DNA of 50,777 nucleotides from Chloroflexota bacterium (GTDB lineage Bacteria; Chloroflexota; Dehalococcoidia; UBA2247; RBG-13-53-26), in assembly GCA_003551705.1 (NCBI GenBank), contig PUNJ01000065.1, positions 1 through 50,777 on the forward strand, given 5' to 3'. The notes under the pieces were generated by a model, which worked only from the letters and a program-made list of their open reading frames with translations, had not been told where the DNA came from and searched no databases. How positions within the stretch are numbered: position 1 is the stretch's first letter; each line of letters begins with the position of its first letter. A program made the position numbers and the translations under genes. Shown one piece after another: positions 4,088 through 23,325 of this stretch.

Positions 4088-5794
4088 GTGAGTAAGAACC
4101 CCAGATATGACGTGATCATCGTCGGCGGTGGCCCTAACGGGCTGGGTATCGCCGCCTACCTGTCAAAATGCGGCCTCAAAGTCTGCCTGTGCGAGGCGCG
4201 GCTCGAAGTAGGAGGAGGCTGCGAGACCATTGAGCCCATTCCAGGCTTCCGTATAGAACCTCATGCATCATACAACTATGCCGGTGCATCGCCGGCCTGG
4301 GAGCAACTCGACCTTGGCAGATTCGGTCTCAGGATGGTGCCCGCCAACGTTTGGGGCACGGCTGCTACCCAGGACTGCAAACGTGTAACCTGTTCCAGTC
4401 GCTGGAATCCCGAAGCCGTACGCGAGGCCGGACGTATGTGGGGGGAGGAGGTTGCCCAGCAGACGGAAGCCATCTACAGCGTTTTGGAAACTCAAGAGTG
4501 TAAGGACTTCCTCAGGTCCATATTCTGGACCCCACCACCTCCCGATGGCTACAGCACCGACCCCGACGACCTGCCGTGGGTCAAGGCCATCAAGAACCTG
4601 CCGCTGATAAACCTTGTCTATGATCACAGCTGGCTGGACATGTCCGTGCTTGATATCACCAATATCATCTGCAGCGAGGAAGCGCAGAAAGTCGGACTCT
4701 CCATTGCTGCCTGGGACAGCGGACCCGAATTCACATCAAAGGGAATGGGGATCGTTGGTCTGGCGGATACCTTCTTGATAATGTATGCGTCCGCCTCTCC
4801 TCTTGGAGGCTTCCATTCCTATGCTCACGCGACCATGCGTTGCGCTCTGGCACATGGCTGTACCATCCTCACCAATTCACCGGTAGAGGAGATTATCGTC
4901 GAGAACGGCGAGGCCAAAGGCGTCCGGCTGGCCGATACATCGCCATCCGCCGATAAGGTCATCTATGCAGACAAGGCCGTGATCAGTAACGCTCACGTTC
5001 AGAAGACCTTTCTTGAAATGGTCCCCTCAAGGCACCTGGACAAGGGCTTCTACCAGAGGGTGAAGGATATAAACCTCAACGGCGGCAGCCTGTTCAAGCT
5101 GGACATGATTGTGAAGGAGTTACCCCGCTTCAAGGACAAGGCAGGCGAGTTCATGGATAAGTACCCGGCATGCTCCAATGTCTTTCCAGTGGACAATATG
5201 GAGGTACTTCTTAACCAGCGCAACGCCGCCAATGTAGAACGCAGGCACGCAAAGAGCAAGGACGAAATGATCCTCCGCTGCGTCCGGCAAAGTGTATATG
5301 ACCCCACCCGCTGTCCGCCTGGTTATCACATACTTTATAACTACATCGTAGTGCCGCCCCCGGAATACCACCGGGATGGTCCGGAAGCTTGTAACAAGGC
5401 CTCGGAGGAGATCGTAGACCTCATGCTGTCGCACTTCCGTGACTACTGCACGAACATGGGCGACGACAACATCGTTGCAAAGTACGTTTGCACGCCCTAC
5501 GACTCTTCTTTCAGAAATGTGGGTTTCGTGGGCGGAAACTGGCAAGGTATCAGGGCTTGCGAGGACCAATGGGGCGTCAACCGTCCGCTACCGGAGCTGG
5601 CCAGATACCGGACTCCAATCGATAAACTTTACCTCTGCAACCAGACTTCCCATCCCGGGGGCCTGGCCTTGATGGCGGTGCCATACTGTCTTATGCACAT
5701 ACTCATAGAAGACCTTGACCTCAAACCCGGCAGCTGGTGGTATCCCTCGCCTTATTACATCTCCGATCGCGAGGTAAAGACCGGTGAGATATAG
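4088..5794 (+). CDS. FAD-dependent oxidoreductase, phytoene desaturase/PYROXD2-like
   Basis: A 568-residue amine-oxidase/CrtI-superfamily flavoprotein. The N terminus carries the FAD dinucleotide-binding motif GGGPNGLGIAAYL (residues 13-25) followed by the E-x(6)-GGG segment typical of phytoene desaturases. The C-terminal FAD closing motif appears as NQTSHPGG...AVPY. The start is a GTG preceded by an ideal gaaggagg. Members of this family desaturate or isomerise hydrophobic, often isoprenoid substrates, but many have unknown function. No phytoene synthase or other carotenoid gene is nearby, so carotenogenesis is unlikely. It is 36 bases upstream of a paralogue, suggesting co-transcription and perhaps a functional pair. 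Substrate unknown. Confidence 0.85.
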   Translation: MSKNPRYDVIIVGGGPNGLGIAAYLSKCGLKVCLCEARLEVGGGCETIEPIPGFRIEPHASYNYAGASPAWEQLDLGRFGLRMVPANVWGTAATQDCKRVTCSSRWNPEAVREAGRMWGEEVAQQTEAIYSVLETQECKDFLRSIFWTPPPPDGYSTDPDDLPWVKAIKNLPLINLVYDHSWLDMSVLDITNIICSEEAQKVGLSIAAWDSGPEFTSKGMGIVGLADTFLIMYASASPLGGFHSYAHATMRCALAHGCTILTNSPVEEIIVENGEAKGVRLADTSPSADKVIYADKAVISNAHVQKTFLEMVPSRHLDKGFYQRVKDINLNGGSLFKLDMIVKELPRFKDKAGEFMDKYPACSNVFPVDNMEVLLNQRNAANVERRHAKSKDEMILRCVRQSVYDPTRCPPGYHILYNYIVVPPPEYHRDGPEACNKASEEIVDLMLSHFRDYCTNMGDDNIVAKYVCTPYDSSFRNVGFVGGNWQGIRACEDQWGVNRPLPELARYRTPIDKLYLCNQTSHPGGLALMAVPYCLMHILIEDLDLKPGSWWYPSPYYISDREVKTGEI

Positions 5795-5830
5795 GGAGAG
5801 GCATAACAGTGGAAAGAAGGAGGCAATGCG

Positions 5831-7513
5831 ATGACGACAACTCGCTTCCCATATAGAAATGACGGCGAATATTCCAAGAGAATTCATCCTGTCATGCCCA
5901 ACCAGTTGGAGTGCGACGTCGCCGTGATAGGCGGCGGTCCCAACGGCCTGATGACTTCAGCCTATCTGGCCAAGGCCGGGCTCAATGTAATCCTGCTGGA
6001 GAGACGCGGCGAGATCGGCGGAGGCCTGGCTACAGAGGAAATCCTCTACCCCAATCATTACGCCAATACGCATGCAATCTACCACATGATGGTCGAATAC
6101 ATGCCCGCTTTCAAAGACTTCAACCTTGGCCAGAGGGGCTTGCTCTGGGTAGGACCGAATGCCCAAACAGGTATGATTTTCAGCGACCGGAGTTCCATCC
6201 TGCTCCACCGCATGGAAGAGGACACCTACGATTCCATAATCAAGTATTCGCAGGAAGACGCCGACAAGTTCATCGGCTGGATCCGGAAACTCCACAAGAT
6301 GATGGACGAGTTGCTTGCACCCGGCACCTATGCCCCTCCACTGCCCGCCGTGGAACTGGCCGTGAAGATGCACCGCACACAGATAGGCCAGGAGTTGATG
6401 GAGATGATGGAACAGACGCCGTACGATATCATCTGCCAGACATTCAAGCACCCCAAAGTCAGAGCTGTCTTCCTCTATATGACGTGCATGTGGGGGCTGG
6501 ATCCCTCAGAGACAGGACTCGCCTTCCTGGTACCCCTGATGATCAGCCGGGGAATGCAGAAATACCAGTGCTATGGAGGCTCACACAAACTGGCGGGCAT
6601 ATTCGGTAAAGAGATTGTCGCCAACGGCGGCACCATCATAGAGAACGGCGAAGTAGTCAAGATACTGGTCGAGAACGGCAAGACAACTGGCGTGGAACTA
6701 TTCGACGGCACCATAATCAAGGCTAAGGCTGTCGCCTCCAGCCTCGACCCCAACACCACCTTCAACAAGCTGGTGGGTGAGCCGAATATCTCGCCAGGCC
6801 TGGCCGAGCGCAGCAAGACCTGGAAAGCGGATAAATGGAGCCTCTACAGTCTCCATATTTTGACGCCCAAGCCCCTGGAATATGATGTTCAGGACGAACT
6901 CCGAATAAATGAGTCCCTTATGAACATCATGGGATTTGAGAACGAAGACGACGTCATGAAGTTCTTCTTGGACGTGCGTGCCGGCAAGCTAAATAACATA
7001 GGCGGTCACGCCACATGCGAGACCTTATACGACCCTACCCTCGTAGACATCAAGGGCAGACATGTCTCCAAGTTCCAATTCCCAGCGCCATACGCCCTGG
7101 ATGGCGATCCCAAGAACTGGGAAAGCAGAAAGAAGGATATTGAGAACAAGGTCCTCGATATGTGGTTCAGCCATCTCAGGGGCATGTCCAAGGACGACAT
7201 CATCAAGCTGACCAGCGAATCACCGGTGGACGTCGAGACCCGCATCCCCTCCATGATCAGGGGAGGCATCAAGCATGGCGACTATAACGCCTTGCAGATG
7301 GGCTACTACAGGCCCGACGAGACCTGTTCCTCCACTCGGACTCCCATTCAGGGGCTCTACGTCTGTGGAGCATCCACATATCCCGGCGGGATGGTGACCG
7401 GCGGTCCCGGTTATATTGCCAGCAACGCCATCGTCGAGGATATGGGCGCCAACAAGTGGTGGCAGGAGCCTGCCTTCATCACCAGATACGTAACCGACTA
7501 CCTAAAGGACTAG
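5831..7513 (+). CDS. FAD-dependent oxidoreductase, phytoene desaturase/PYROXD2-like (paralogue)
   Basis: A 560-residue flavoprotein related to the gene just upstream. The FAD-binding motif GGGPNGLMTSAYL lies at about residues 35-47 after a ~25-residue N-terminal extension, and an E-RRGEIGGGLAT segment follows. The C-terminal FAD contact region reads GLYVCGASTYPGGMVTGGPG. A strong aaggagg at 5817-5823 precedes the ATG. The two copies have diverged widely outside these motifs, so they probably act on different intermediates or form a heteromer rather than being a recent duplication. A long GC-rich hairpin follows the stop codon. Redox substrate unknown; a desaturase or dehydrogenase of a lipid-like compound is the family-based guess. 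Confidence 0.85.
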   Translation: MTTTRFPYRNDGEYSKRIHPVMPNQLECDVAVIGGGPNGLMTSAYLAKAGLNVILLERRGEIGGGLATEEILYPNHYANTHAIYHMMVEYMPAFKDFNLGQRGLLWVGPNAQTGMIFSDRSSILLHRMEEDTYDSIIKYSQEDADKFIGWIRKLHKMMDELLAPGTYAPPLPAVELAVKMHRTQIGQELMEMMEQTPYDIICQTFKHPKVRAVFLYMTCMWGLDPSETGLAFLVPLMISRGMQKYQCYGGSHKLAGIFGKEIVANGGTIIENGEVVKILVENGKTTGVELFDGTIIKAKAVASSLDPNTTFNKLVGEPNISPGLAERSKTWKADKWSLYSLHILTPKPLEYDVQDELRINESLMNIMGFENEDDVMKFFLDVRAGKLNNIGGHATCETLYDPTLVDIKGRHVSKFQFPAPYALDGDPKNWESRKKDIENKVLDMWFSHLRGMSKDDIIKLTSESPVDVETRIPSMIRGGIKHGDYNALQMGYYRPDETCSSTRTPIQGLYVCGASTYPGGMVTGGPGYIASNAIVEDMGANKWWQEPAFITRYVTDYLKD

Positions 7514-7718: not shown

Positions 7719-7767
7719 CTAGCATTGCCGTGCGAGATCTAGCGCAGCTAAAATACAGGAGGTGGCA

Positions 7768-9213
7768 ATGGTCGGTATAACATCTTATGGTGCCTACATA
7801 CCCTGGCATCGGATGAACCGGGAAGATTGTGTAAAAGCCTGGGGAGGCTTCGCAATGCCCGGTGAAAGGGCCGTGGCCTACTATGATGAAGATAGCCTTA
7901 CCATGGCCGTGGATGCGGCCAGGGATGCTTTGGCGGACTTCGATTCCACCAAAGTCGATGGGCTCTTCTTTGCCACCACTTCCTCTCCATACCGGGAGAA
8001 GCAGTGTGCGGCAATCATGGCATGGCCACTGAACCTGCGCAACAACATCAGAAGTGTTGATGTCAGCACCTCCCTCAAGTCAGGAACATCAGCACTGGCC
8101 CTCGCAGTCGATTCCATCAAGGCCGGGACACTCAACAGTGCTTTGGTCACCGCCGCGGACCTCCGACTGGGTGCGCCGGCCGGTATGCTGGAGCAACAAG
8201 TGGGGGATGGTGCCGCTGCATTCCTGCTGGGACGGGAGAACGTCATCGCTGAGATCATCGGTATGTACTCTGTCGCCGATGAACTCGTGGGAACTTGGCG
8301 CTCCTCCGAGGATTTCTATCTCCGTTCCTGGGAGGACCGAATGATCATGGACGAGGGCTACGCAAAGATCCTCCCCGAGGCCATGGCAGGAGTGCTCAAA
8401 CTTTGTGAGCTGACCCCCAAGGATATTACCAAGGTTGTCTTCGACCCACCCGCAGACGCCAGGAGGCATGGCAAGGTAGTATCGCAAGCAGGATTTGAAC
8501 CCGGCCAGGCACAGGATATCTATGGCCTCTATCTGAACGTGGGTATTACCGGCTCAGCCATGGCACCCATGATGCTGGTAGCTGCCCTGGAAGACGCCAA
8601 GCCCGGAGACAAGATCTTGTTTGCCGGGAGCGGGGACGGAGCAGACGCTTTCATCCTGCAGGTAACAGATCAGATAACCAAGCTCAAACCGCGTCGCGGG
8701 ATAAAACAGAACCTTGTCTCCAAGAGAGTGATGGCCAATTATAACGACTATATGCGATGGCGAGACATGGTCCCCCTGGAAGCTGCCCGCAGGCCCGACA
8801 AACAGCATATCCGCCTGTCCGCAAACTGGCGGGAGCGAAAACAGCTACTGGGACTCTGGGGAGTGAAGTGCCTGAAATGCGGCACACCCCAGTACGATAA
8901 CGGCGCAGCTACAACGGGCCCAATCCGCATTTGTGCAGGTTGCCAGGCCCAGGACGCTTTTGAAGACTACCCCTTTGCACACAGGAAGGCTACAGTTTTC
9001 AGTTATACTCAAGATAACCTGGCCCCAGTCATAGACCCTCCTGCCTCTGTGGTACTGGTAGAGTTCGAAGGCGGAGGAAGGGCATTCTTCGATCTCACGG
9101 ACCGAGACCCGGCGAAGGTAGAGATCGGCATGCCGGTAGAAATGACCTTCAGAAAACTGCAACTCGACCGGGGCATCACCAACTATTTCTGGAAAGCTCG
9201 CCCAATAAGGTAA
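7768..9213 (+). CDS. HMG-CoA synthase-like protein fused to DUF35 zinc-ribbon/OB-fold domain
   Basis: A 481-residue fusion. Residues 1-310 have the thiolase-superfamily fold of HMG-CoA synthases (start MVGITSYGAYIP). Residues 355-481 are a DUF35 module: zinc ribbon C368-x2-C371...C389-x2-C392, then an OB fold. I took the ATG at 7768 because aggagg (7757-7762) is correctly spaced; a GTG at 7762 overlaps that site. By motif alignment the three catalytic residues of archaeal HMG-CoA synthase appear replaced: Glu by T71, Cys by L103 (in SLKSGTSAL) and His by D226. It precedes a thiolase by 15 bases. In archaea DUF35 bridges thiolase and HMGCS, so this may be a scaffold or CoA-binding partner of that thiolase. 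Confidence 0.85.
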   Translation: MVGITSYGAYIPWHRMNREDCVKAWGGFAMPGERAVAYYDEDSLTMAVDAARDALADFDSTKVDGLFFATTSSPYREKQCAAIMAWPLNLRNNIRSVDVSTSLKSGTSALALAVDSIKAGTLNSALVTAADLRLGAPAGMLEQQVGDGAAAFLLGRENVIAEIIGMYSVADELVGTWRSSEDFYLRSWEDRMIMDEGYAKILPEAMAGVLKLCELTPKDITKVVFDPPADARRHGKVVSQAGFEPGQAQDIYGLYLNVGITGSAMAPMMLVAALEDAKPGDKILFAGSGDGADAFILQVTDQITKLKPRRGIKQNLVSKRVMANYNDYMRWRDMVPLEAARRPDKQHIRLSANWRERKQLLGLWGVKCLKCGTPQYDNGAATTGPIRICAGCQAQDAFEDYPFAHRKATVFSYTQDNLAPVIDPPASVVLVEFEGGGRAFFDLTDRDPAKVEIGMPVEMTFRKLQLDRGITNYFWKARPIR

Positions 9214-9228
9214 AGGAGGAGGCAAAAG

Positions 9229-10398
9229 ATGCCAGGGAGCATAAAAGATAGAGTTGCTATTGTAGGCATGGGTTGCACCCAATTCGGGGAGCTATGGGGC
9301 AAGGGCCCCACTGATTTGATTGTTGAGGCGGTTAATGAGGCATTGGCCGATGCCGGTATCGAGATGAAGGACGTTCAAGCCGCCTGGGGCGGAACCCTAT
9401 TCAGCGGCGCCGGTGGCCGCACAGTCAGTGAGGCCCTCAGGTCACAATACATACCTGTAACCCGCGTAGAGAATGCCTGCGGGTCAGGCCATGAAGCCGT
9501 CCGAGGCGCCTCCTACGCCATCGCGGCAGGCATTTATGACATTTGCCTGGCCGTGGGCTATGAGAAGCTCAAGGATGAGGGCATGAGTGGACTGCCTGGT
9601 ATGGAGAACCGCACCAACACACACTATCAGTCCAGCATGCCCGGCGTTTTTGCCATTATGGCCACTCGTTACTTCAACAGGTACGGTCTCAGCCCGGAAG
9701 AGGGCAAGAGTATGCTGGGTAAGATCTCCGTCAAGAGCCACCGCAACGGGGCCATGAATCCCAAAGCACACCTGAGAAGAGAAATCACCCTCGAACAGGT
9801 ACTCAATGCGCCCATTATTGCCTGGCCCTTGGGACTATTCGACTGTTGTGGCGTATCGGACGGGGGAGCAGCCGCGATTCTAGTCAGAGCCGACATGGTC
9901 AAGAATTTCCCCAACCGACCCGTATACATCAAGGCACTGCAAATATGTGCCAGCCCTACCACGGGCAGGATGGTAACGGACTACGATTACACGCACGTTG
10001 AGGAAGCCCACCGGGCCGGAATTGCTGCCTACAAAGAGGCCGGCATAACCAACCCCAGGAAAGAAATAAGCATGGCAGAGGTGCATGACTGCTTCTCCAT
10101 CACGGAAGCGGTCACCATGGAAGACTTGCAGTTCAGTCCCAGGGGACGAGTCAAGGAAGACGTCGATGCCGGTGTCTTCACCCTCGAAGGAGAACTGCCC
10201 GTCCAACCTGACGGTGGCTTGAAGTGCTTTGGACATCCCATTGGGGCCTCTGGCATACGAATGCTCTACGAGCCTTACCTACAATTCCAGGGCAAGGCTG
10301 GCCAGCGTCAACTCAAAGACCCCAAACTGGCTCTGGCCCACAACATGGGCAACGAGCCTTATGCACCAGTGGTCAGCGTCTGTATAGTCGGGACATAA
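9229..10398 (+). CDS. SCP2-type thiolase / acetyl-CoA acetyltransferase family
   Basis: A 389-residue thiolase of the SCP-x/lipid-transfer-protein group. The nucleophilic cysteine is C84 in NACGSGHEAVRGA. The family's HDCF motif is at residues 286-289 and the GHPIGASG loop at 335-342 supplies H336. The C terminus lacks the classical CxGGG thiolase cysteine, as expected for the SCP2 type. A good gaggagg precedes the ATG and the gene directly follows the DUF35 fusion, resembling thiolase-DUF35 complexes such as archaeal acetoacetyl-CoA thiolase/HMGCS and benzoylsuccinyl-CoA thiolase BbsAB. Expected role is CoA-dependent carbon-carbon cleavage. The related Ltp2 aldolases are an alternative, but the retained C84 favours thiolysis. 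Confidence 0.87.
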   Translation: MPGSIKDRVAIVGMGCTQFGELWGKGPTDLIVEAVNEALADAGIEMKDVQAAWGGTLFSGAGGRTVSEALRSQYIPVTRVENACGSGHEAVRGASYAIAAGIYDICLAVGYEKLKDEGMSGLPGMENRTNTHYQSSMPGVFAIMATRYFNRYGLSPEEGKSMLGKISVKSHRNGAMNPKAHLRREITLEQVLNAPIIAWPLGLFDCCGVSDGGAAAILVRADMVKNFPNRPVYIKALQICASPTTGRMVTDYDYTHVEEAHRAGIAAYKEAGITNPRKEISMAEVHDCFSITEAVTMEDLQFSPRGRVKEDVDAGVFTLEGELPVQPDGGLKCFGHPIGASGIRMLYEPYLQFQGKAGQRQLKDPKLALAHNMGNEPYAPVVSVCIVGT

Positions 10399-10590: not shown

Positions 10591-12528
10591 ATGAGCAGTT
10601 TCGCAAACCTTTTTCAACCCGGCACGATCGGCACCTTGGTCGTCAAGAACCGGATTATAATGCCCGCCATGGGCACGCAATTGGCCGACGCCGAAGGCCG
10701 GGTGACCCAGCGCTTGTTGGACTACTATAGGGCCAGGGCCCAAGGCGGCGCCGGATTGATAACCCCTCAGTTCGCCTCCGTGAGCGCCGATGCCACCCTA
10801 CCCTTCACCATGCCCATTTACCATAATAGCCACATCGATGATTGGAGAAAGCTGGCGGATACCGTACACGAGGCGGGATCCAAAATCTGTATACAGCTTA
10901 TGCATATCGGCATGCTCTTTATCTATTCCGGCTTTGTTCCTGAAGGCATGGTGGTTAAGGCGCCTTCACTGACTACATGGTTGAAGAACACCCTCCCCTA
11001 CGAAGAGATCAGCGTGGACGACATCGATCGTTACGTGGAAGACTTCGCTCAAGCCGCCCGCCGGGCCGTGGCGGCAGGCGCCGATGTTCTGGAACTGCAC
11101 GCCTGTCACGGCTGTCTGGTGAGTAGCTTCATGTCCCCTATAACCAACCGCCGCAAGGACGAGTATGGAGGCAGCAATGTCAACCGTGCCCGATTTGCCC
11201 GTCGTATAGTCGAGCGCATGAGGCAGGAACTGGGCCCTGCGGTGCCCATAATGGTGCGCATGAACGCCTGCGACGACCTGGAAGGTGGCATTACCATAGA
11301 CGAGGCGATCGAGCAGGCGACCATTCTGGAGGCAGCCGGCGCTGATGCCATCAATGTTTCCTCCGGACTCGAATACTGGACGACCTTGAGCATACCTACT
11401 TTTCTCTTCCCCGAAGGACCCATGGTGCCGTTCGCAACAATGATCAAGCAGGGAATAAGCGTACCGGTGGTGGCAGCCGGCAAGATAGGGCCAGAATATG
11501 CGGCAAGCGTGATCAATGAGGAGAAAGCGGATTTCGTAGCCCTGGGCCGACCATTGCTGGCAGACCCGGAACTCCCCAACAAGTTGAGGGAAGACCGCAT
11601 AGACGACGTCCGTCGCTGCATCTACTGCAACAATTGTCTCAAATCAGCCACCGACCCGGCGGCAGGACCCATGTCCTGCTCGGTCAACCCCTTTGTTTCC
11701 AGAGAAGCCAGATATCCCTACCCAGCCACCCCAACTCCCAAAAGGATCATGGTAGCTGGCGGAGGACTGGCCGGTATGGAGACGGCCATCTATCTCAAGG
11801 AGCGCGGGCATCAGGTGACCTTATACGAGAGGGAAACTCAACTCGGCGGACAATGGAATGTGGCCTGCGCCTCTCCGGGCAAGGAAGGCTACAGGGCCTT
11901 GTCTGACTATCTCATCAAACGCCTGGCCCAACTGGCGGTCCCCATCCATGTGAATACCGAGGTGACCACGAACATGGTCATGGAACACAGTCCAGACGCC
12001 GTGGTGATCGCTACGGGGGCTGTGCCGACTGGACTGCCGGTACCGGGAGCGGATAAGCCGCATGTCGTTCAAGGGCATGACGTGCTGGCAGGCAAAGTGC
12101 CGGTGAAGGGCAAGTGTGCGGTCATTGGCGGGCGATTCATCGGGATTGAAGCGGCCATAATGCTGGCCGAGAAGAACTACAAGGTGAGCATCATTACCAA
12201 GGCCGGTTTGGGAGAGAACGGTGTCAAGCTGGAGAAGTTCAACTTGCAGACCCTTGGGAATAGACTCTTTGATCTGGATATTCCTCTCTATCTCAACTCC
12301 ACGGTAGTGGAAATAACGGACCGATCAGTATTCATTGCCATGGGAGGCGAGATCTACCCAGTGCGCGCCGACACTGTGATTCTCTCGGTAGGTATGAGAT
12401 CGGTAGACAGCCTTGCCAGAGAATTGGAAGGCTCGGGCTTGGCTGTGTACAAGGTCGGCGACTGCGTACAACCCAAGGATGCTGCTGACGTGTCCTACCA
12501 AGCGGCCCGATTGGCCTCTACCGTATGA
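10591..12528 (+). CDS. NADH:flavin oxidoreductase, dienoyl-CoA reductase/TMADH-like
   Basis: A 645-residue three-part Fe-S flavoenzyme. Residues 1-340 form an old-yellow-enzyme FMN TIM barrel. C343-x2-C346-x2-C349-x13-C363 binds a [4Fe-4S] cluster with spacing close to trimethylamine dehydrogenase. An FAD/NAD(P) domain follows, with VAGGGLAGMETA at about 388-399. Relatives include 2,4-dienoyl-CoA reductase FadH, enoate reductases and bile-acid BaiCD/BaiH. The barrel motif HACHGCLVSSF has C175 where FadH-type enzymes carry a proton-donating tyrosine (HGYL), which suggests altered chemistry. It probably reduces or oxidises a conjugated double bond in a CoA ester or cyclic enone; the substrate is unknown. 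The start ATG has aaggagc upstream. Confidence 0.87.
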   Translation: MSSFANLFQPGTIGTLVVKNRIIMPAMGTQLADAEGRVTQRLLDYYRARAQGGAGLITPQFASVSADATLPFTMPIYHNSHIDDWRKLADTVHEAGSKICIQLMHIGMLFIYSGFVPEGMVVKAPSLTTWLKNTLPYEEISVDDIDRYVEDFAQAARRAVAAGADVLELHACHGCLVSSFMSPITNRRKDEYGGSNVNRARFARRIVERMRQELGPAVPIMVRMNACDDLEGGITIDEAIEQATILEAAGADAINVSSGLEYWTTLSIPTFLFPEGPMVPFATMIKQGISVPVVAAGKIGPEYAASVINEEKADFVALGRPLLADPELPNKLREDRIDDVRRCIYCNNCLKSATDPAAGPMSCSVNPFVSREARYPYPATPTPKRIMVAGGGLAGMETAIYLKERGHQVTLYERETQLGGQWNVACASPGKEGYRALSDYLIKRLAQLAVPIHVNTEVTTNMVMEHSPDAVVIATGAVPTGLPVPGADKPHVVQGHDVLAGKVPVKGKCAVIGGRFIGIEAAIMLAEKNYKVSIITKAGLGENGVKLEKFNLQTLGNRLFDLDIPLYLNSTVVEITDRSVFIAMGGEIYPVRADTVILSVGMRSVDSLARELEGSGLAVYKVGDCVQPKDAADVSYQAARLASTV

Positions 12529-12530
12529 AT

Positions 12531-12560
12531 TTGATCCTCATGCCTGACGATGTTTATACT
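12531..12560 (+). promoter_or_regulatory. candidate sigma70-type promoter
   Basis: TTGATC (12531-12536, four of six to -35) and TATACT (12555-12560, five of six to -10) are 18 bases apart, just after the upstream stop codon. The predicted leader is about 58 bases before the ATG at 12625. Confidence 0.42.
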
Positions 12561-12624
12561 GTTAGGGTTATCTGGTGAAGGAACGTCGTCAACGAATGCA
12601 GAAAGTAACCGGGGAGGTCTCTTG

Positions 12625-14760
12625 ATGAACTGCAGCATTCCTGATCAATGGGATATCCAAGTAGACTTGGCGGTCATCGGTTCCAGTTGCGGCGGGCTTA
12701 CCGCTGCGTGCAAGGCCAAAGAACTGGGGCTGTCCGCCATCGTTCTCGAAAAGGCTTCAACCCTGGGAGGGGGCACCGCTTTCTCCGGGGGTGTAGTCTG
12801 GATCCCTTTCAATCATCACATGCTGGCCGCAGGGCTTCAGGACAGCAAAGAAGCCGCCTTGGAACATATCCGCTGTTCGAGCATGGGCAGGCATGATGAA
12901 GACCTGCTCGCCACCTATCTCGATACCGGCCCGGAGATGGTGCGCGACGTGGAACGCATCACGCCGCTTAAGATGGTGTCGGCAGATAATCTGCCTGATT
13001 ACCGGGATGAATTGCCCGGCGGCAGCAAGGGTGGGCGGCTTCTGGCTCCCGACCCGCTTAATATGGCGCAGCTTCTCTTGGATGCCGAACAGAAGTACCC
13101 TGCCATTGGCAAGATCCGTCAATCGCCTTTCCCGCTGTATTCTGCCGTGCCCCTACCTACGAACGATCCCCGTTTCTACGTTGCCGGCCGGGCCCTCATA
13201 GGAGGTTTGCTGCTTGGCTGTATAGAAATGGGGATTGAGGTTCTAGACGGTACCCCGGCCAAGAAGCTCATTGTGCAGGATGGCCGGGTCATAGGCGTTG
13301 AAGCGGAGAGAAACGGCAGTCCCTTTTTCGTTAAGGCGGACAGGGGCGTCCTGCTAGCCACTGGTGGATCGGAATGGAACGATGCCTTGAACAGAAAGTA
13401 CATGCGAGTGCCCAAAGTTCACGGCATCACTCCGCCCAGCAATTCGGGCGATGGTCACATTATGGGTATGGAAGTCGGCGGCGCAGTAGCTCTCATGGAC
13501 CTTTCCCTGCTGATGCCGACTGTCCGCATCCCTGGCGAGGAAATCGACGGCGAGCCCATGTACCGCATTTTTCAGTTCTGGGTTGGCCAGCCAGGCAACA
13601 TCCTGGTCAATAAGAATGGGAAGCGCTGCTGCGACGAGGCCTTCTACCCGGACATCGGCCGTGCCTTCGAGGAAATGGATGCCCAGAAACTGACCCATGC
13701 CAACCTTCCCATGTACTGGATAGTGGACCAGGGCTTCAGGGACTGGATGACGGTCGGTACTCTGCCCCGCGGGACCGAGATGGCCGACTGGCTCCAGAAG
13801 GGCGAGACCGTAGAGGATCTGGCTGAGAAGCTGGGCCTGCCCCCTGCCAACCTTAGGGAGACCATCGAACGGTTCAATACCTTCGCCAGGGAAGGAAAGG
13901 ACCCCGACTTTCACCGGGGCGAGAGCGCCTATGACCGGCGGTGGGGTTACCGGCCCAAGCACAAACCCAACCCAGCCCTGGGCCCGTTGGAGAAACCGCC
14001 CTACTACGGCCTGCAGATCCACGTAGGTTCCGTTGGTAATCTGGGCGGCCTGGTGACCAACAGCAACGCCCAGGTCCTCAAAGCGTCCGGGGAGGTCATA
14101 CCCGGCCTGTACGCCACCAGTAATACGGCGGCGGCCCTACACTTTGGCTGCGCCTATACCAGCGGCATGGTGGGAGGCAAAGCTATGACCTTCGGTTGGA
14201 TTGCGGCCAGGCACGCCGCTGGTTTTAAGGATGGCGAGAAGGCGGCAGTCCCGGCGGCTCGCACGGCTGCGGGACGGCAGGCCGCGACGGCGCAGGCACA
14301 ACAATCCCAAGTCGCTGCCCAGGCGTCCGCAAGCACAGACTCGCCGAGCGCGTCGGCCAAGACCATAAACATCCTTAATGAGGATGGCACCAGCCTGCTG
14401 GGGCTGCAGTCTGTAAGCAAGGCCGGGGACCGGCTCTGCATGAAGGGCAAGCTCATGGGTAGTTTTGATACCAAGATGTACCTGAACGCCGGCGGACTTT
14501 ATCAGATGCTCGGTCTCATGATGGGGAAAGCAGTGCTTCTGTTCTTGCTGCTGTCTCCCTGGTACTGGATCAAAGGTTATATGCAGACCACCCAGGATAC
14601 GGGCGGCGCGAGGACCGGGCGGATCATGGCTACCGGACTCCTTGCCCTGGCCGCGTATGCCATACTGGCGTTCATCATCGCCATGATAGTCCTGGGCATT
14701 TACAATCTTCTGGTGTACCACCGCCAGACCCCGCGCAGCCAGACGGCAGCCCGGGGCTGA
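12625..14760 (+). CDS. KSTD/fumarate-reductase-like FAD protein with C-terminal membrane hairpin
   Basis: A 711-residue flavoprotein. Residues 1-540 match the FAD_binding_2 family (3-ketosteroid dehydrogenases, fumarate reductase flavoproteins): FAD-binding GSSCGGLTAAC near residue 16, GGGTAFSGGVVWIP, and the C-terminal SGMVGGKAMTFGWIAARHA with a preceding tyrosine. An Ala/Gln/Ser-rich linker follows at about 541-575. Two hydrophobic stretches at about 625-645 and 671-697 predict a membrane hairpin, absent from ordinary KSTDs and from the paralogue at 21724. I chose the ATG at 12625 for its ggggagg at 7-base spacing; an upstream in-frame ATG lacks such a site. Likely a membrane-tethered dehydrogenase of a cyclic ketone passing electrons to a quinone or membrane partner (inference). 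Confidence 0.82.
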   Translation: MNCSIPDQWDIQVDLAVIGSSCGGLTAACKAKELGLSAIVLEKASTLGGGTAFSGGVVWIPFNHHMLAAGLQDSKEAALEHIRCSSMGRHDEDLLATYLDTGPEMVRDVERITPLKMVSADNLPDYRDELPGGSKGGRLLAPDPLNMAQLLLDAEQKYPAIGKIRQSPFPLYSAVPLPTNDPRFYVAGRALIGGLLLGCIEMGIEVLDGTPAKKLIVQDGRVIGVEAERNGSPFFVKADRGVLLATGGSEWNDALNRKYMRVPKVHGITPPSNSGDGHIMGMEVGGAVALMDLSLLMPTVRIPGEEIDGEPMYRIFQFWVGQPGNILVNKNGKRCCDEAFYPDIGRAFEEMDAQKLTHANLPMYWIVDQGFRDWMTVGTLPRGTEMADWLQKGETVEDLAEKLGLPPANLRETIERFNTFAREGKDPDFHRGESAYDRRWGYRPKHKPNPALGPLEKPPYYGLQIHVGSVGNLGGLVTNSNAQVLKASGEVIPGLYATSNTAAALHFGCAYTSGMVGGKAMTFGWIAARHAAGFKDGEKAAVPAARTAAGRQAATAQAQQSQVAAQASASTDSPSASAKTINILNEDGTSLLGLQSVSKAGDRLCMKGKLMGSFDTKMYLNAGGLYQMLGLMMGKAVLLFLLLSPWYWIKGYMQTTQDTGGARTGRIMATGLLALAAYAILAFIIAMIVLGIYNLLVYHRQTPRSQTAARG

Positions 14761-18789: not shown

Positions 18790-20778
18790 ATGCACCTGTA
18801 TGGATATGCGGGGGAGGTCCTTAAATGTGACCTCTCCTCCGGCAATTTTTCACGGATCCCCACAAACGCCTTGGCTGGCCCATACATAGGCGGTAGAGGA
18901 ATCGCCGCCCGATTGTTCTGGGACGAGGTCCCGCCTTCGGCCGGGGCCTTTGATCCGCAAAACGCTCTGATCATTGCTACCGGGCCGATGTCAGGACTGC
19001 CGGTTATAGCCGGTTCGCGATGGACAGTTTGCGGCAAGTCACCGGCGTCTTCCCCAGAACACTTCTCCTATGCCAACCTTGGCGGTCGCTGGGGTGCAAG
19101 CCTGAAATTCGCCGGCTTCGACGCCTTGGCAGTGACAGGTTCGTCGAAAGAGCCGGTATATATCTTGCTGGATGGCGATACGGTTTCAATAAGAAACGCA
19201 TCGAGCCTCTGGGGACGGGGAGCGATCGAGACCCGGAAGATGCTACAGGCGGAGCTGGGAGATTCAGCTCGTGTATTGAGTGTGGGCCCCGCCGGCGAAA
19301 ACCGGGCCGTAATGGCCACCCTGCTTGGGGACAATGATGCCAGCGGTTCGGCCGGTCTGGGAGCAGTCATGGGCTCGAAAATGGTCAAGGCCATCGTCAT
19401 CAGGGCCGCCCCCCGACGGACCGCTGTTGCCCACCCGGACAAGCTGAGAGAGCTTACGGAGTATTACCGTGGTCTGTGGCGCATTACGCTGCCTTCTTCA
19501 GCCTATCGGTACTCACCGGAAGTCGTACCCAGCTTTGGCAAGGAGAAGATGAAGAAGGGCGACCCTTGCTATGGCTGTCGAGGTTGCATGAGGAGATTGT
19601 ACGAAGCCAGTAACGGTCAAAAAGGCAAGTACTTATGCGCTTCCGCCCTGTTCTACCAGCCGTGGGTTGTAGCCCACCATGGGGAATGGGTGGAAGACCT
19701 GAGTTTCTACGCAACCAAGATCATAGACAATTATGGATTGGACTCAAAAGCCATGGACCAGATCATAGGCTGGCTGGATGGTTGCCGCCAGGCAGGACTG
19801 CTCACCGATGAAAATGCGGGGCTGGCGTTATCCAAGATAGGCAGCCTGGAATTCATCGAGACTCTATCCAGGATGATGGCCTTCCGGGAGGGTATCGGCG
19901 AGTTGCTGGCTGGCGGACTGCATTCAGCAGCGGCTGCCATGGGCCCGCAGCACCAAGAGATCGCTGCCCAAACAGGCTACCTCGGCATGTCGAAATATGC
20001 ACTGATCTACGATCCACGGCTATATATTGCTCACGCCATCCTCTTTGCCACGGAACCGCGCCTCCCCATGTCGCATCTGCATGAATACGGAACACTCATG
20101 GGCAAGTTTGCCTCTTGGGCAAAGGGTTCCCCAGGAGCACTTGCATCGGCAGACGTGGTCCGTGCCATAGCCAAAAGGTTCTGGGGCAGCGAGGCAGCAG
20201 GCGACCTCTCGACCTATGAAGGCAAAGCTTTGGCAGCAAAAATAATCCAAGACCGGGCGACCGCCAAGGAATCACTGATACTGTGCGATCTGGTGTGGCC
20301 TGTGCTGGATATGCAGAATTCACCCGACCATGTGGGAGATCCCGCCCTCGAAAGTAGACTTCTCTCATCTGTCACCGGCCACGATTTCGATGAGGAGGCG
20401 CTGTACAAGGTGGGGGAGCGAGTCTTCAACATGCAGCGAGCAATCATGGTCAGAGAGGGGCATCAGGGACGCCTTTCCGATCAGCCCCCGCTTCGCTGCT
20501 TTAATGAACCCCTTGAGTTCGATCAGATTAACCAGGACTGCCTCGTTCCCGGCAAAGACGGTGCGGTAGTCTCCCGCAAGGGAGCGATGCTGGACAGGGC
20601 TTCCTTCGAGCAGATGAAAGACGAGTATTACCGTTTGCGCGGCTGGTGTGTACAAACAGGGCTGCAGACCAAACAAACTCTCGACAGGCTTGGTCTGGGA
20701 GATGTAGCAACGGATTTGCACGACCGTGGACTGCTCGGGCCCGGCAAGAAAGACACATCACAAACCAAGGAGGCATAG
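18790..20778 (+). CDS. aldehyde ferredoxin oxidoreductase family protein (AOR-1)
   Basis: A 662-residue member of the tungsten-bispterin AOR family, which interconverts aldehydes and carboxylates with ferredoxin. The N-terminal domain has GGRGIAARLFWDEVP and the pterin-loop NLGGRWG at about 97-103. The Fe-S ligands are C260-x2-C263-x2-C266 plus a distal cysteine in SLILCDLVWP. Canonical AORs have C-x2-C-x3-C, so one residue is missing. It closely resembles the AOR at 44255 and differs from the canonical-looking one at 32555. The AOR stop overlaps the start of the next gene (TAGTG), so it is translationally coupled to the SDR. Substrate unknown; benzoyl- or cyclohexane-type carboxylate reduction is only one possibility. 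Confidence 0.87.
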   Translation: MHLYGYAGEVLKCDLSSGNFSRIPTNALAGPYIGGRGIAARLFWDEVPPSAGAFDPQNALIIATGPMSGLPVIAGSRWTVCGKSPASSPEHFSYANLGGRWGASLKFAGFDALAVTGSSKEPVYILLDGDTVSIRNASSLWGRGAIETRKMLQAELGDSARVLSVGPAGENRAVMATLLGDNDASGSAGLGAVMGSKMVKAIVIRAAPRRTAVAHPDKLRELTEYYRGLWRITLPSSAYRYSPEVVPSFGKEKMKKGDPCYGCRGCMRRLYEASNGQKGKYLCASALFYQPWVVAHHGEWVEDLSFYATKIIDNYGLDSKAMDQIIGWLDGCRQAGLLTDENAGLALSKIGSLEFIETLSRMMAFREGIGELLAGGLHSAAAAMGPQHQEIAAQTGYLGMSKYALIYDPRLYIAHAILFATEPRLPMSHLHEYGTLMGKFASWAKGSPGALASADVVRAIAKRFWGSEAAGDLSTYEGKALAAKIIQDRATAKESLILCDLVWPVLDMQNSPDHVGDPALESRLLSSVTGHDFDEEALYKVGERVFNMQRAIMVREGHQGRLSDQPPLRCFNEPLEFDQINQDCLVPGKDGAVVSRKGAMLDRASFEQMKDEYYRLRGWCVQTGLQTKQTLDRLGLGDVATDLHDRGLLGPGKKDTSQTKEA

Positions 20779-21578
20779 TGGAACTCGGTCTCACAGGAAA
20801 GACGATCATATTGACGGGCGGAAGCTCCAATATCGGCAAGGGGATACTGCTCGGTTTTGCTGCCGAAGGTTCACGTATAGTAAACGCCGACAGAGATGAG
20901 GTACAGGCAGTCAAGGCCGTTCAGGAGGCAAACAGCATCGGCGGCGAAGCAGTATTCGTTAAGACCGATGTAACCGACTGGCAATCGGTTCAGGACATGG
21001 TGAAAGCTACCCTGGAAAGGTTCGGTAAGGTCGATGTCCTGGTAAATAATGCAGGTGGCACACTGAGCATGTCTCCCTTCATGAAAAAGAAGAGAGAAGA
21101 GTGGAAACACGAAATAGACCTGAATTACTGGGGCGTCATAAACTGTACCCGCGCCGTGCTCGACCACATGATCGAACGCAAGCAAGGCCGGATTGTCAAT
21201 ATTGCCTCCGGGTCGGGCCAGATCGGACTCGGAGCCATAGATTGTGCAGTCTACGGCGGAGTCAAGGGCGGCGTGATAGCCTTGTCCAGAGCACTGGCTT
21301 GGGAATTGGGCAGGTACAACATAACGGTTAACGTGGCTTCACCGGGATGGATCGTACCGTACAATAAGGAGGATACCGGAGAAAACAGTTTCTGGAGCAA
21401 GTGGGGTTATGATTACTTCACTCCTGAGAAACTTGAGTCGGCCCAAAAATACTGGCCGATACGCCGCTTAGGCAGGCCTGAGGATATGGCGGACACCGTC
21501 TTGTTCCTGGCCTCCGATCGGGCGAGCTTTCTGACAGGTCAGACCATAAGCGTGAGCGGCGGCGTTGCCATGTGGTAG
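20778..21578 (+). CDS. SDR family oxidoreductase
   Basis: A 266-residue classical short-chain dehydrogenase. It has the cofactor motif TGGSSNIGKG (about 13-22), the NNAG motif, a catalytic serine in IASGSGQIG and the YGGVK motif with catalytic Tyr and Lys. The C-terminal RPEDMADTVLFLASD...TGQTISVSGG is typical of 3-oxoacyl-ACP reductase-like SDRs. The start is a GTG that shares a G with the AOR-1 stop codon and has aaggagg upstream. The open frame continues 44 codons upstream inside the AOR gene and should not be used. It likely oxidises a hydroxyl group on an intermediate, including possibly a CoA ester. Fatty-acid synthesis is less likely because no fab genes are nearby. Confidence 0.88.
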   Translation: MELGLTGKTIILTGGSSNIGKGILLGFAAEGSRIVNADRDEVQAVKAVQEANSIGGEAVFVKTDVTDWQSVQDMVKATLERFGKVDVLVNNAGGTLSMSPFMKKKREEWKHEIDLNYWGVINCTRAVLDHMIERKQGRIVNIASGSGQIGLGAIDCAVYGGVKGGVIALSRALAWELGRYNITVNVASPGWIVPYNKEDTGENSFWSKWGYDYFTPEKLESAQKYWPIRRLGRPEDMADTVLFLASDRASFLTGQTISVSGGVAMW

Positions 21579-21723
21579 TCAAAGCTCTGAGTACTTCACG
21601 CTCGACTTTCACAAGCGGAGTCGATATGTTACCATGTTCGCAAACGAGGGTACCGGCCAGTCACGAAGAGTGCCTGGCATCCTGTCTGCTATTCTGCCAA
21701 ATCTTTGAGAATCGGAGGTCTTC

Positions 21724-23325
21724 ATGCTGAAGCAGACTGCAGCTCCGTCGAAATGGGATCTTGAGGTTGACCTGGTATCGGTCGGGTCCAGCGGTGGCGG
21801 GCTCGTAGCCGCCATAATGGCGCATGATCTGGGTATGAGCACTGTCGTGCTGGAGAAAGCGGATACCCTCGGGGGAGGCACTGCCATATCCGGAGGAGCC
21901 ATCTGGATACCCTTCAATGACCACATGCTTGACATGGGTATACCCGACTCCAGAGAAGACACATTGACTTATATCCGCCATGTCAGCATGGGGCATCACG
22001 ATGAAGATCTGCTGGCTGCCTACATAGATACGGGGCCGGAGATGGTCCGCTACCTGGAAGCTCATACGCCGCTGAAGATGGCCTGCGAGGACGACGCCAG
22101 CCGTACAGAGTACTGTGCAGACGCTCCCGGCGGGAAACCCATGGGCCGCAAATTGTGGCCCCATCCGGAGACGGTGCCCCCTATTCTCGAAGAAGCGGAA
22201 AAGGTCCACCCGGATGTAGGCAAGGTTCGCAAAGACCCTGTCAAATTCCTCATCGGCCCTCGTTTCCCCTGGGTGCAGGGGCGCGGCCTCATTGGCGCAC
22301 TGGTTTTGGGATGCGTGAACAGAGGAATCACCATCATGACCGACACGCCGGGACGAAACCTGGTCGTAGAAAATGACCGCATCGTCGGCATCCGGGCGCA
22401 GAGGAACGGCGAGGACTTCTTCGTCAAAGGCCGCAAGGGCGTCCTGCTGGCTACCGGAGGATTCGAGTGGAACACTGAGATGAACAAGCGCTTCATCTAT
22501 TCACCGCCGCTGAACGCTTATACCTCACCCAGTAATGAAGGGGATGGTCATATAATGGCCATGGAAGCCGGCGCTGCCCTGGCACTCATGGACCACAGCA
22601 TATTTCAACCGGGACTAAGCCTCCCCACAGATGTCGTCGATGGTGGCAGGAAGTTGCATCGTCCCTTCATATACGGTTACCCTCACATGATCATGGTAAA
22701 CCGCCACGGTAAACGCTGCTGCGACGAGGCCTTTTATCCCGACATGGGGCGAGCCCTGTGTGCCTACGACAGGATCAAGGGGGAGTATGCCAACTGGCCG
22801 GTCTTCTGGATCTGCGATCAGAATTTCCGCGACACTATGCCGGTTGTTAATCTGAAAAGGGGGACCGATGTTGCGGAATGGATGAAGAAAGGCGAAACGT
22901 TGATCGAGTTGGCCGAGGCTCTCGGCATCCCGGCCGGCAACTTCGTGGAGACCGTTGAAAGATTCAACCGGTTCGCCGCCGAAGGGAAGGACCCTGATTT
23001 CCGTAGGGGGGAGAGCACCTTTGACAAGCAGTGGGGTGAGTTCGTATTCCCGGGACGTAAACCAAGCCCGCTCCTTGGCCCCATCGAGAAGCCTCCCTTC
23101 TATGGCGTCCAGATATCATTAACAACCGCGGGCAATCTAGGAGGTGTAGTCACCAACACGCATGCCCAAGTCATAGACGTCCGTGGCAACATCCTGCCCG
23201 GACTGTATGCCACCAGCAACACTCAGGCAATGCTTCCGTTGGGCCATCACTATGACAGCGGCGCCGCCCAGGGGAAGAGCATGATCTTCGGGTATCTGGC
23301 AGCCAAGCATATGGCCAAGACGTAG
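21724..23325 (+). CDS. KSTD/fumarate-reductase-like FAD protein
   Basis: A 533-residue FAD_binding_2 flavoprotein, paralogous to the N-terminal ~540 residues of the protein at 12625 and lacking its membrane tail. It has the FAD motif GSSGGGLVAA (21-30), LGGGTAISGGAIWIP, and a late HYDSGAAQGKSMIFGYLAAKHMA with the tyrosine expected near the KSTD active site. Other shared blocks include KRCCDEAFYPDMGRA. These enzymes introduce a double bond next to a carbonyl in a ring or act on enoates; the actual substrate is unknown. An ATG with atcggagg upstream sets the start. The leader has a small inverted repeat TCGACT/AGTCGA (21602-21624) of uncertain meaning. Confidence 0.84.
   Translation: MLKQTAAPSKWDLEVDLVSVGSSGGGLVAAIMAHDLGMSTVVLEKADTLGGGTAISGGAIWIPFNDHMLDMGIPDSREDTLTYIRHVSMGHHDEDLLAAYIDTGPEMVRYLEAHTPLKMACEDDASRTEYCADAPGGKPMGRKLWPHPETVPPILEEAEKVHPDVGKVRKDPVKFLIGPRFPWVQGRGLIGALVLGCVNRGITIMTDTPGRNLVVENDRIVGIRAQRNGEDFFVKGRKGVLLATGGFEWNTEMNKRFIYSPPLNAYTSPSNEGDGHIMAMEAGAALALMDHSIFQPGLSLPTDVVDGGRKLHRPFIYGYPHMIMVNRHGKRCCDEAFYPDMGRALCAYDRIKGEYANWPVFWICDQNFRDTMPVVNLKRGTDVAEWMKKGETLIELAEALGIPAGNFVETVERFNRFAAEGKDPDFRRGESTFDKQWGEFVFPGRKPSPLLGPIEKPPFYGVQISLTTAGNLGGVVTNTHAQVIDVRGNILPGLYATSNTQAMLPLGHHYDSGAAQGKSMIFGYLAAKHMAKT

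Follow-up and report, generated by a model that had tools for sequence, protein, structure and literature searches.

The window, a stretch of 50,777 nt from a Chloroflexota bacterium of the class Dehalococcoidia, carries a gene in which a domain resembling HMG-CoA synthase (HMGCS) is joined to a DUF35 domain, directly upstream of a thiolase gene (Table 1). What does such a protein do if, as a preliminary description of this DNA held, the HMGCS-like domain has lost all three catalytic residues? That description left the choice between a structural or CoA-channelling subunit of the thiolase and a domain that catalyzes something new. The observation is confirmed and is far more general than one gene; our verdict is that the protein is a non-catalytic HMGCS subunit of the PhlA kind, joined to its bridge, which probably serves a fully equipped CoA thiolase and is present as multiple paralogues.

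Architecture and predicted fold of the fused protein

The open reading frame is unbroken and follows a Shine-Dalgarno sequence (AGGAGG, 7757–7762). Residues 1–335 matched two HMGCS models below their cut-offs (NF003274: E = 2e-65, 221 bits, just under the curated cut-off of 244; TIGR00748: E = 4.5e-46, 158 bits, cut-off 353), as well as the archaeal HMGCS in the PDB (6esq_I: E = 4e-34) and PhlA (5m3k: E = 1.5e-34). The C-terminal part has both hallmarks of DUF35, a Cys4 zinc ribbon and an OB fold, the latter matching OB_ChsH2_C/PF01796 (E of about 1e-10, over the PF01796 cut-off). Both the HMGCS-type fold and the complete zinc-ribbon/OB unit were thus correctly recognized in the preliminary description. 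The two parts form one reading frame in 71 homologues. Fusions of DUF35 to members of the thiolase superfamily have been mentioned in general terms (PMC2954200), and we found no description in the open-licence literature of a dead HMGCS-like domain fused to DUF35.

The AlphaFold2 (AF2) model of the fused protein was confident (mean pLDDT 87.1, pTM 0.89). Its top Foldseek match was the archaeal HMGCS 6esq_I (TM-score by target 0.86), followed by PhlA (9skh, 5mg5, and 5m3k: 0.83–0.84), MucABC (9vbt and 9vbo: 0.82–0.84), and then FabH. The joint prediction of fusion and thiolase that had been proposed as a check was run as a single read-through chain (stop codon read as Gln, short linker, unpaired alignment); it gave a pTM of 0.50, with both halves confident and their mutual placement not.

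Table 1 Features of the fused gene and its partner in the window.
Feature	Position	Strand	Basis
Fused HMGCS-like/DUF35 protein, 481 aa, ATG start	7768..9213	+	Profile matches, AF2 pTM 0.89
HMGCS-like (thiolase-fold) domain, residues 1–335, apparently catalytically empty	7768..8772	+	Profile and sequence matches, alignments
Codon of T71, position of HMGCS Glu82	7978..7980	+	phmmer, MAFFT, hhalign
Codon of L103, position of HMGCS Cys114	8074..8076	+	phmmer, MAFFT, hhalign
Codon of D226, position of HMGCS His238	8443..8445	+	phmmer, MAFFT, hhalign
DUF35 zinc ribbon (C368, C371, C389, C392)	8857..8958	+	Each Cys kept in 55/56 homologues
OB-fold domain, residues 405–462	8980..9153	+	PF01796, E = 1.1e-10
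Ribosome-binding site of the thiolase, immediately 3' of the stop codon of the fused gene	9214..9222	+	Sequence
Partner thiolase, 389 aa, C84/H286/C288/H336	9229..10398	+	NF004810, PDB 6esq_A

Loss of the HMGCS catalytic residues

The replacement of the catalytic Glu, Cys, and His by T71, L103, and D226, first read from motifs, was recovered by every alignment method used: phmmer, MAFFT with more than 80 homologues, a local-pair MAFFT alignment of 113 rows, and hhalign. The last is an independent profile-profile comparison, in which a profile of fused proteins only was aligned to one of canonical HMGCS (E = 1.9e-55). In the 113-row alignment, none of the 71 fused homologues has the Glu, the Cys, or the His at its position, and all three are found in 31 of 31 canonical HMGCS, so the loss is not due to chance. 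The catalytic triad is also complete at every canonical HMGCS locus (L018–L088). Within the fused family, the Cys position is occupied mainly by Leu or Ile (also by Met or Val, and by Thr, Gln, Asn, Pro, Ala, or His) and the His position by Tyr, Pro, Asp, or Asn; the residues at the Glu and His positions are freely variable.

A substitute pair would undermine the idea of a dead domain, as the preliminary description pointed out, and no near-invariant Cys or His emerged when every column of the HMGCS-like domain was scanned across the 71 fused proteins. The best columns were those of H234 (codon 8467–8469), a His in 55/71 where HMGCS has Tyr, and of position 54, a Cys in 54/71 but Ala in the window's protein. 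These alignments support a family-level loss of HMGCS catalysis.

A genuine HMG-CoA synthase whose catalytic residues have moved, working in the mevalonate pathway, would account for the HMGCS fold and the moderate model scores. We regard it as hardly credible: the three residues are missing in 71/71, the scores lie under the HMGCS cut-offs, and seven fused paralogues in one genome would be superfluous. In addition, the mevalonate pathway does not explain the fused protein, because the genome contains the MEP gene dxr and none of its proteins passes the HMGCS family cut-off.

Pairing with a complete thiolase

The thiolase gene follows the fused gene after 15 nt that contain its ribosome-binding site (AGGAGGAGG). 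Its product scored above the cut-off of NF004810 (553 bits, cut-off 403), and its top PDB match was the archaeal acetoacetyl-CoA thiolase (6esq_A: E = 1e-56). It has the residues expected of archaeal/SCP2-type CoA thiolases, namely the Cys nucleophile (C84), the HDCF motif (H286/C288), and the His of the GHP motif (H336); to the C84, H286, and H336 noticed earlier, C288 can therefore be added. This set is shared by the partners of other fused proteins: both Cys residues and the HDCF His were present in 51/51 aligned thiolases, the final His in 50/50 where covered, and all four residues in 13/13 partners of further, more divergent fused members, which brings the HDCF His and Cys to 64/64.

In the first survey of 56 distinct fused genes, nearly all had a thiolase directly downstream, mostly at a distance of 5–40 nt. 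Where an adjacent thiolase is missing, the fused gene is mostly at the end of a contig or locus; in one case the thiolase is 3.3 kb away, and no partner was found at the locus of one fused gene (L147). Distance matrices of the fused proteins and their own thiolases were correlated (r = 0.877 over 50 pairs). When partners were shuffled among the paralogues of a genome, the mean correlation was 0.31 and the best 0.58, with 0/2000 shuffles reaching the observed value. Linkage contributes to this co-variation and might even suffice to generate it; the correlation therefore indicates that the pairs were kept as units through duplications, and not contact as such.

Distribution, selection, and descent

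The window's genome contains seven fused copies. A further dead HMGCS-like gene in it is unfused, with DUF35 and a thiolase encoded separately. Of 197 genomes sampled from the class, 77 have family members (up to nine per genome among the matches listed), as do all 10 examined genomes of the window's family; in a phylum-wide sample the count was 23 of 400. Homologues in the genome collection belong to MAGs labelled Chloroflexi, Dehalococcoidia, Deltaproteobacteria, Thermodesulfobacteriota, and Acidimicrobiia. Fused/thiolase pairs appear to provide uncultured members of the class with a sizeable set of thiolases.

In eight genomes from at least three families, one or two fused/thiolase pairs lie directly after the gene for ribosomal protein L1 (L108:2968-12357 in G000:C106; L124, L128, L129, L140, L119, L104, and L103). 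The gene order is EF-Tu, NusG, L11, L1, pair(s), L10, with L10 following wherever the locus reaches that far, and the site is occupied by different paralogue clades.

Based on close orthologues, dN/dS was about 0.05–0.17 for the HMGCS-like part where calculable (0.17 in the least dS-saturated pair), 0.02–0.10 for DUF35, and 0.014–0.042 for the thiolase, with dS close to saturation in many pairs. Purifying selection acts on the dead domain, which nevertheless evolves faster than DUF35 and the thiolase. Such constraint means that the gene is not decaying. The loss of all three catalytic residues is what a decaying or misannotated former HMGCS would display, an explanation with next to no probability given that the gene is intact in nearly all genomes carrying it, is widespread and multi-copy in the class, and has a near-obligate thiolase partner besides the low dN/dS.

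Purifying selection could also mean that the HMGCS-like domain is competent for another reaction (for example decarboxylation, hydrolysis, or Cys-free acyl transfer) that would use R133, D147, E189/R191, or H234, and that it forms a two-step enzyme with the thiolase. The dead domain does have near-invariant polar residues (R133, E142, D147, E189, and R191), some of them unlike canonical HMGCS: R133 (codon 8164–8166; 56/56 fused proteins) and D147 both replace Ala, and the frequency of H234 points the same way. However, PhlA has an Arg at the place of R133 as well, although it is non-catalytic, and GDGA, including its Asp, is a common motif of KAS III enzymes, so R133 and D147 look structural. 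The mostly hydrophobic, variable Cys position and the free Glu and His positions resemble a relaxed pocket. We thus consider a second reaction unlikely; no result supports this half of the preliminary proposal. Its other half, a structural subunit of the thiolase, is the best reading of the pairing, the co-variation, the purifying selection, and the fold shared with archaeal HMGCS, PhlA, and MucABC.

In a tree of 113 HMGCS-like domains, whose root is not fixed and which is compatible with one or several losses, a branch (SH-aLRT 99) separates the fused and the unfused dead proteins of the class from the rest. Canonical HMGCS form a separate branch (SH-aLRT 99), and PhlA, MucA, and the sequence from locus L152 form a third group (SH-aLRT 99), apart from the fused clade; support for strict monophyly of the fused proteins is low (SH-aLRT 50). 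Sister to the fused family are loci with an unfused dead HMGCS-like gene, a separate DUF35 gene, and a complete thiolase (L113, at G000:C186:33442-36033; L148–L151 and L010). This unfused dead lineage suggests that catalytic loss preceded fusion.

Comparison with known complexes

A dead HMGCS-like subunit, known from a few enzymes of antibiotic biosynthesis, has a published precedent that the preliminary description did not mention, the PhlA subunit of PhlACB (PMC6392133), and MucA seems from its residues to be another. In PpATase, the PhlACB of Pseudomonas protegens, the HMGCS Cys and Glu are missing from PhlA and catalysis is left to PhlC alone; the PhlA and PhlC sites border one cavity, and activity requires expression of the entire operon, with the three proteins together (PMC6392133). 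PhlACB (PpATase; CsATase, 9skh) and the window's pair are alike in that a dead HMGCS-like subunit, a DUF35 partner, and a catalytic thiolase-fold subunit are encoded together; PhlA has Cys, Gly, and Gln at the HMGCS Glu, Cys, and His positions, so that all three residues are absent as in the fused protein.

This likeness, together with the fold matches to PhlA and MucABC, would fit a CoA-independent C-acyltransferase (a three-component Friedel-Crafts acylase of the PhlACB/MucABC type) in place of a CoA thiolase. We judge this quite improbable on several grounds. PhlC lacks the HDCF His and its active site is lined by Tyr298 (PMC6392133), whereas the aligned partners of fused proteins invariably keep the HDCF His and Cys; the PhlC-like partner at L152 has Tyr and a gap at these positions. 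Furthermore, PhlA-type sequences group separately in the unrooted tree, and the neighbours of the fused genes are beta-oxidation-like. PhlACB also differs in that it consists of three separate genes and is one biosynthetic system (for DAPG), whereas the window's HMGCS-like and DUF35 parts are fused and the family is multi-copy.

One genome of the window's class does contain a PhlA/PhlC-type pair (L152:2803-5099 in G040:C62), with Cys, Gly, and Gln at the HMGCS positions and a thiolase-fold partner in which Tyr replaces the HDCF His and the HDCF Cys is missing. Judging from these residues, it is possible that this pair is a Friedel-Crafts acylase.

The archaeal complex (6esq, Methanothermococcus) comprises the same three folds, its thiolase, like that of the window, has a complete catalytic set, and it gave the HMGCS part its best match by fold and the thiolase its best match by sequence. 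According to two papers (PMC6392133, PMC12329534), CoA binds at the interface of all three proteins. Its HMGCS is active with E82/C114/H238 and serves the mevalonate pathway with separate subunits, whereas the fused protein matches archaeal-type HMGCS by fold and profile and lacks all three residues. MucABC (9vbo/9vbt, Streptococcus macacae), a multi-component acyltransferase according to the PDB title, also has an HMGCS-like subunit without the catalytic set (Cys, Glu, and Gln at the three positions); unlike the fused family, it is unfused, sits on a long tree branch, and belongs to natural-product acetylation (mutanocyclin/reutericyclin). Finally, the benzoylsuccinyl-CoA thiolase BbsAB and the steroid aldolases Ltp2-ChsH2 and Sal-Shy combine a thiolase-fold enzyme with a DUF35 partner and act on bulky acyl-CoA, but have no HMGCS-like component, and the window's thiolase scored far below the BbsB cut-off (154 bits, cut-off 750).

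Genomic context and proposed function

Recurrent neighbours in 56 fused-gene neighbourhoods were acyl-CoA dehydrogenases (16), SDRs (14), and acyl-CoA synthetases (7), which are minimum counts because some genes were hidden by long antisense ORFs (apparently spurious and ignored). These neighbours point to beta-oxidation-like thiolysis, and the pair probably has a role in an unusual beta-oxidation.

The surroundings of the window's own copy (4088–7513, 10591–14760, and 18790–23325) are rich in flavoproteins, with two CrtO-like oxidoreductases, a BaiCD/OYE-like enoate reductase, two KSTD-like dehydrogenases, and an AFOR, hinting at cyclic or polyunsaturated substrates. A substrate prediction from the operon was dropped, as the CrtO-like, BaiCD/OYE-like, KSTD-like, and AFOR genes are not syntenic beside the orthologues of the window's pair.

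The fused architecture, the residue loss, the complete thiolase, the near-obligate pairing, the co-variation, the purifying selection, and the fold are directly supported. It is likely that they describe a non-catalytic HMGCS-like/DUF35 subunit that completes the CoA-dependent thiolase of the next gene in a two-gene assembly. By analogy with PpATase and the archaeal complex, the dead domain would most likely complete the CoA/acyl site and the oligomer of the thiolase; it is from such relatives that we infer physical assembly, a shared CoA site, the direction, and the substrate. In the mechanism that we propose, an HMGCS-like pseudoenzyme covalently joined to its DUF35 bridge would pair with the next-gene thiolase, so that two genes would encode what takes three components in the archaeal thiolase/DUF35/HMGCS and PhlACB complexes. 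The whole chemistry would reside in the thiolase, with C84 as nucleophile besides H336 and the HDCF residues H286/C288. The HMGCS-like domain would be the adjoining wall of a common CoA/pantetheine site, and the DUF35 part would keep the oligomer together. In this way the thiolase may be able to use 3-oxoacyl-CoA that is unusual or bulky, in pathways resembling beta-oxidation.

Loci with the other half silent

Mirror-image loci were found among unfused genes (L022–L087), in which an archaeal-type HMGCS with intact Glu/Cys/His is adjacent to a thiolase homologue. The nucleophilic Cys of the thiolase was lost in 49 of 61 such loci, which were chosen by similarity, are mostly from Anaerolineae, and do not amount to a census; the catalytic set was kept in 12. 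The Cys was replaced by Gly, Glu, Asp, or Asn, and the final His was usually lost too. Taken together, the dead-HMGCS pairs and the loci with a Cys-less thiolase indicate that either of the two halves of the assembly can be the silent one. We tentatively suggest, at a confidence somewhat short of even, that thiolase/DUF35/HMGCS is a scaffold with two active sites of which lineages silence either half, the silent half being kept to build the CoA site of the other. In one class the HMGCS would have died, been fused to the bridge, and expanded (in some cases within a ribosomal-protein operon), and in Anaerolineae the reverse would have happened. We found no description in the open-licence literature of this partnership with a catalytically complete thiolase, of the seven-copy expansion, or of the mirror-image set.

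For annotation, the result is a correction, since such genes would pass as HMG-CoA synthases and imply a mevalonate pathway. It also brings together many natural versions of one complex in which one half or the other has lost its catalytic role although its fold and its partner are retained. Such a series lets one test why archaeal-type thiolases retain an HMGCS-shaped partner, be it for the CoA site, stability, substrate size, or channelling.
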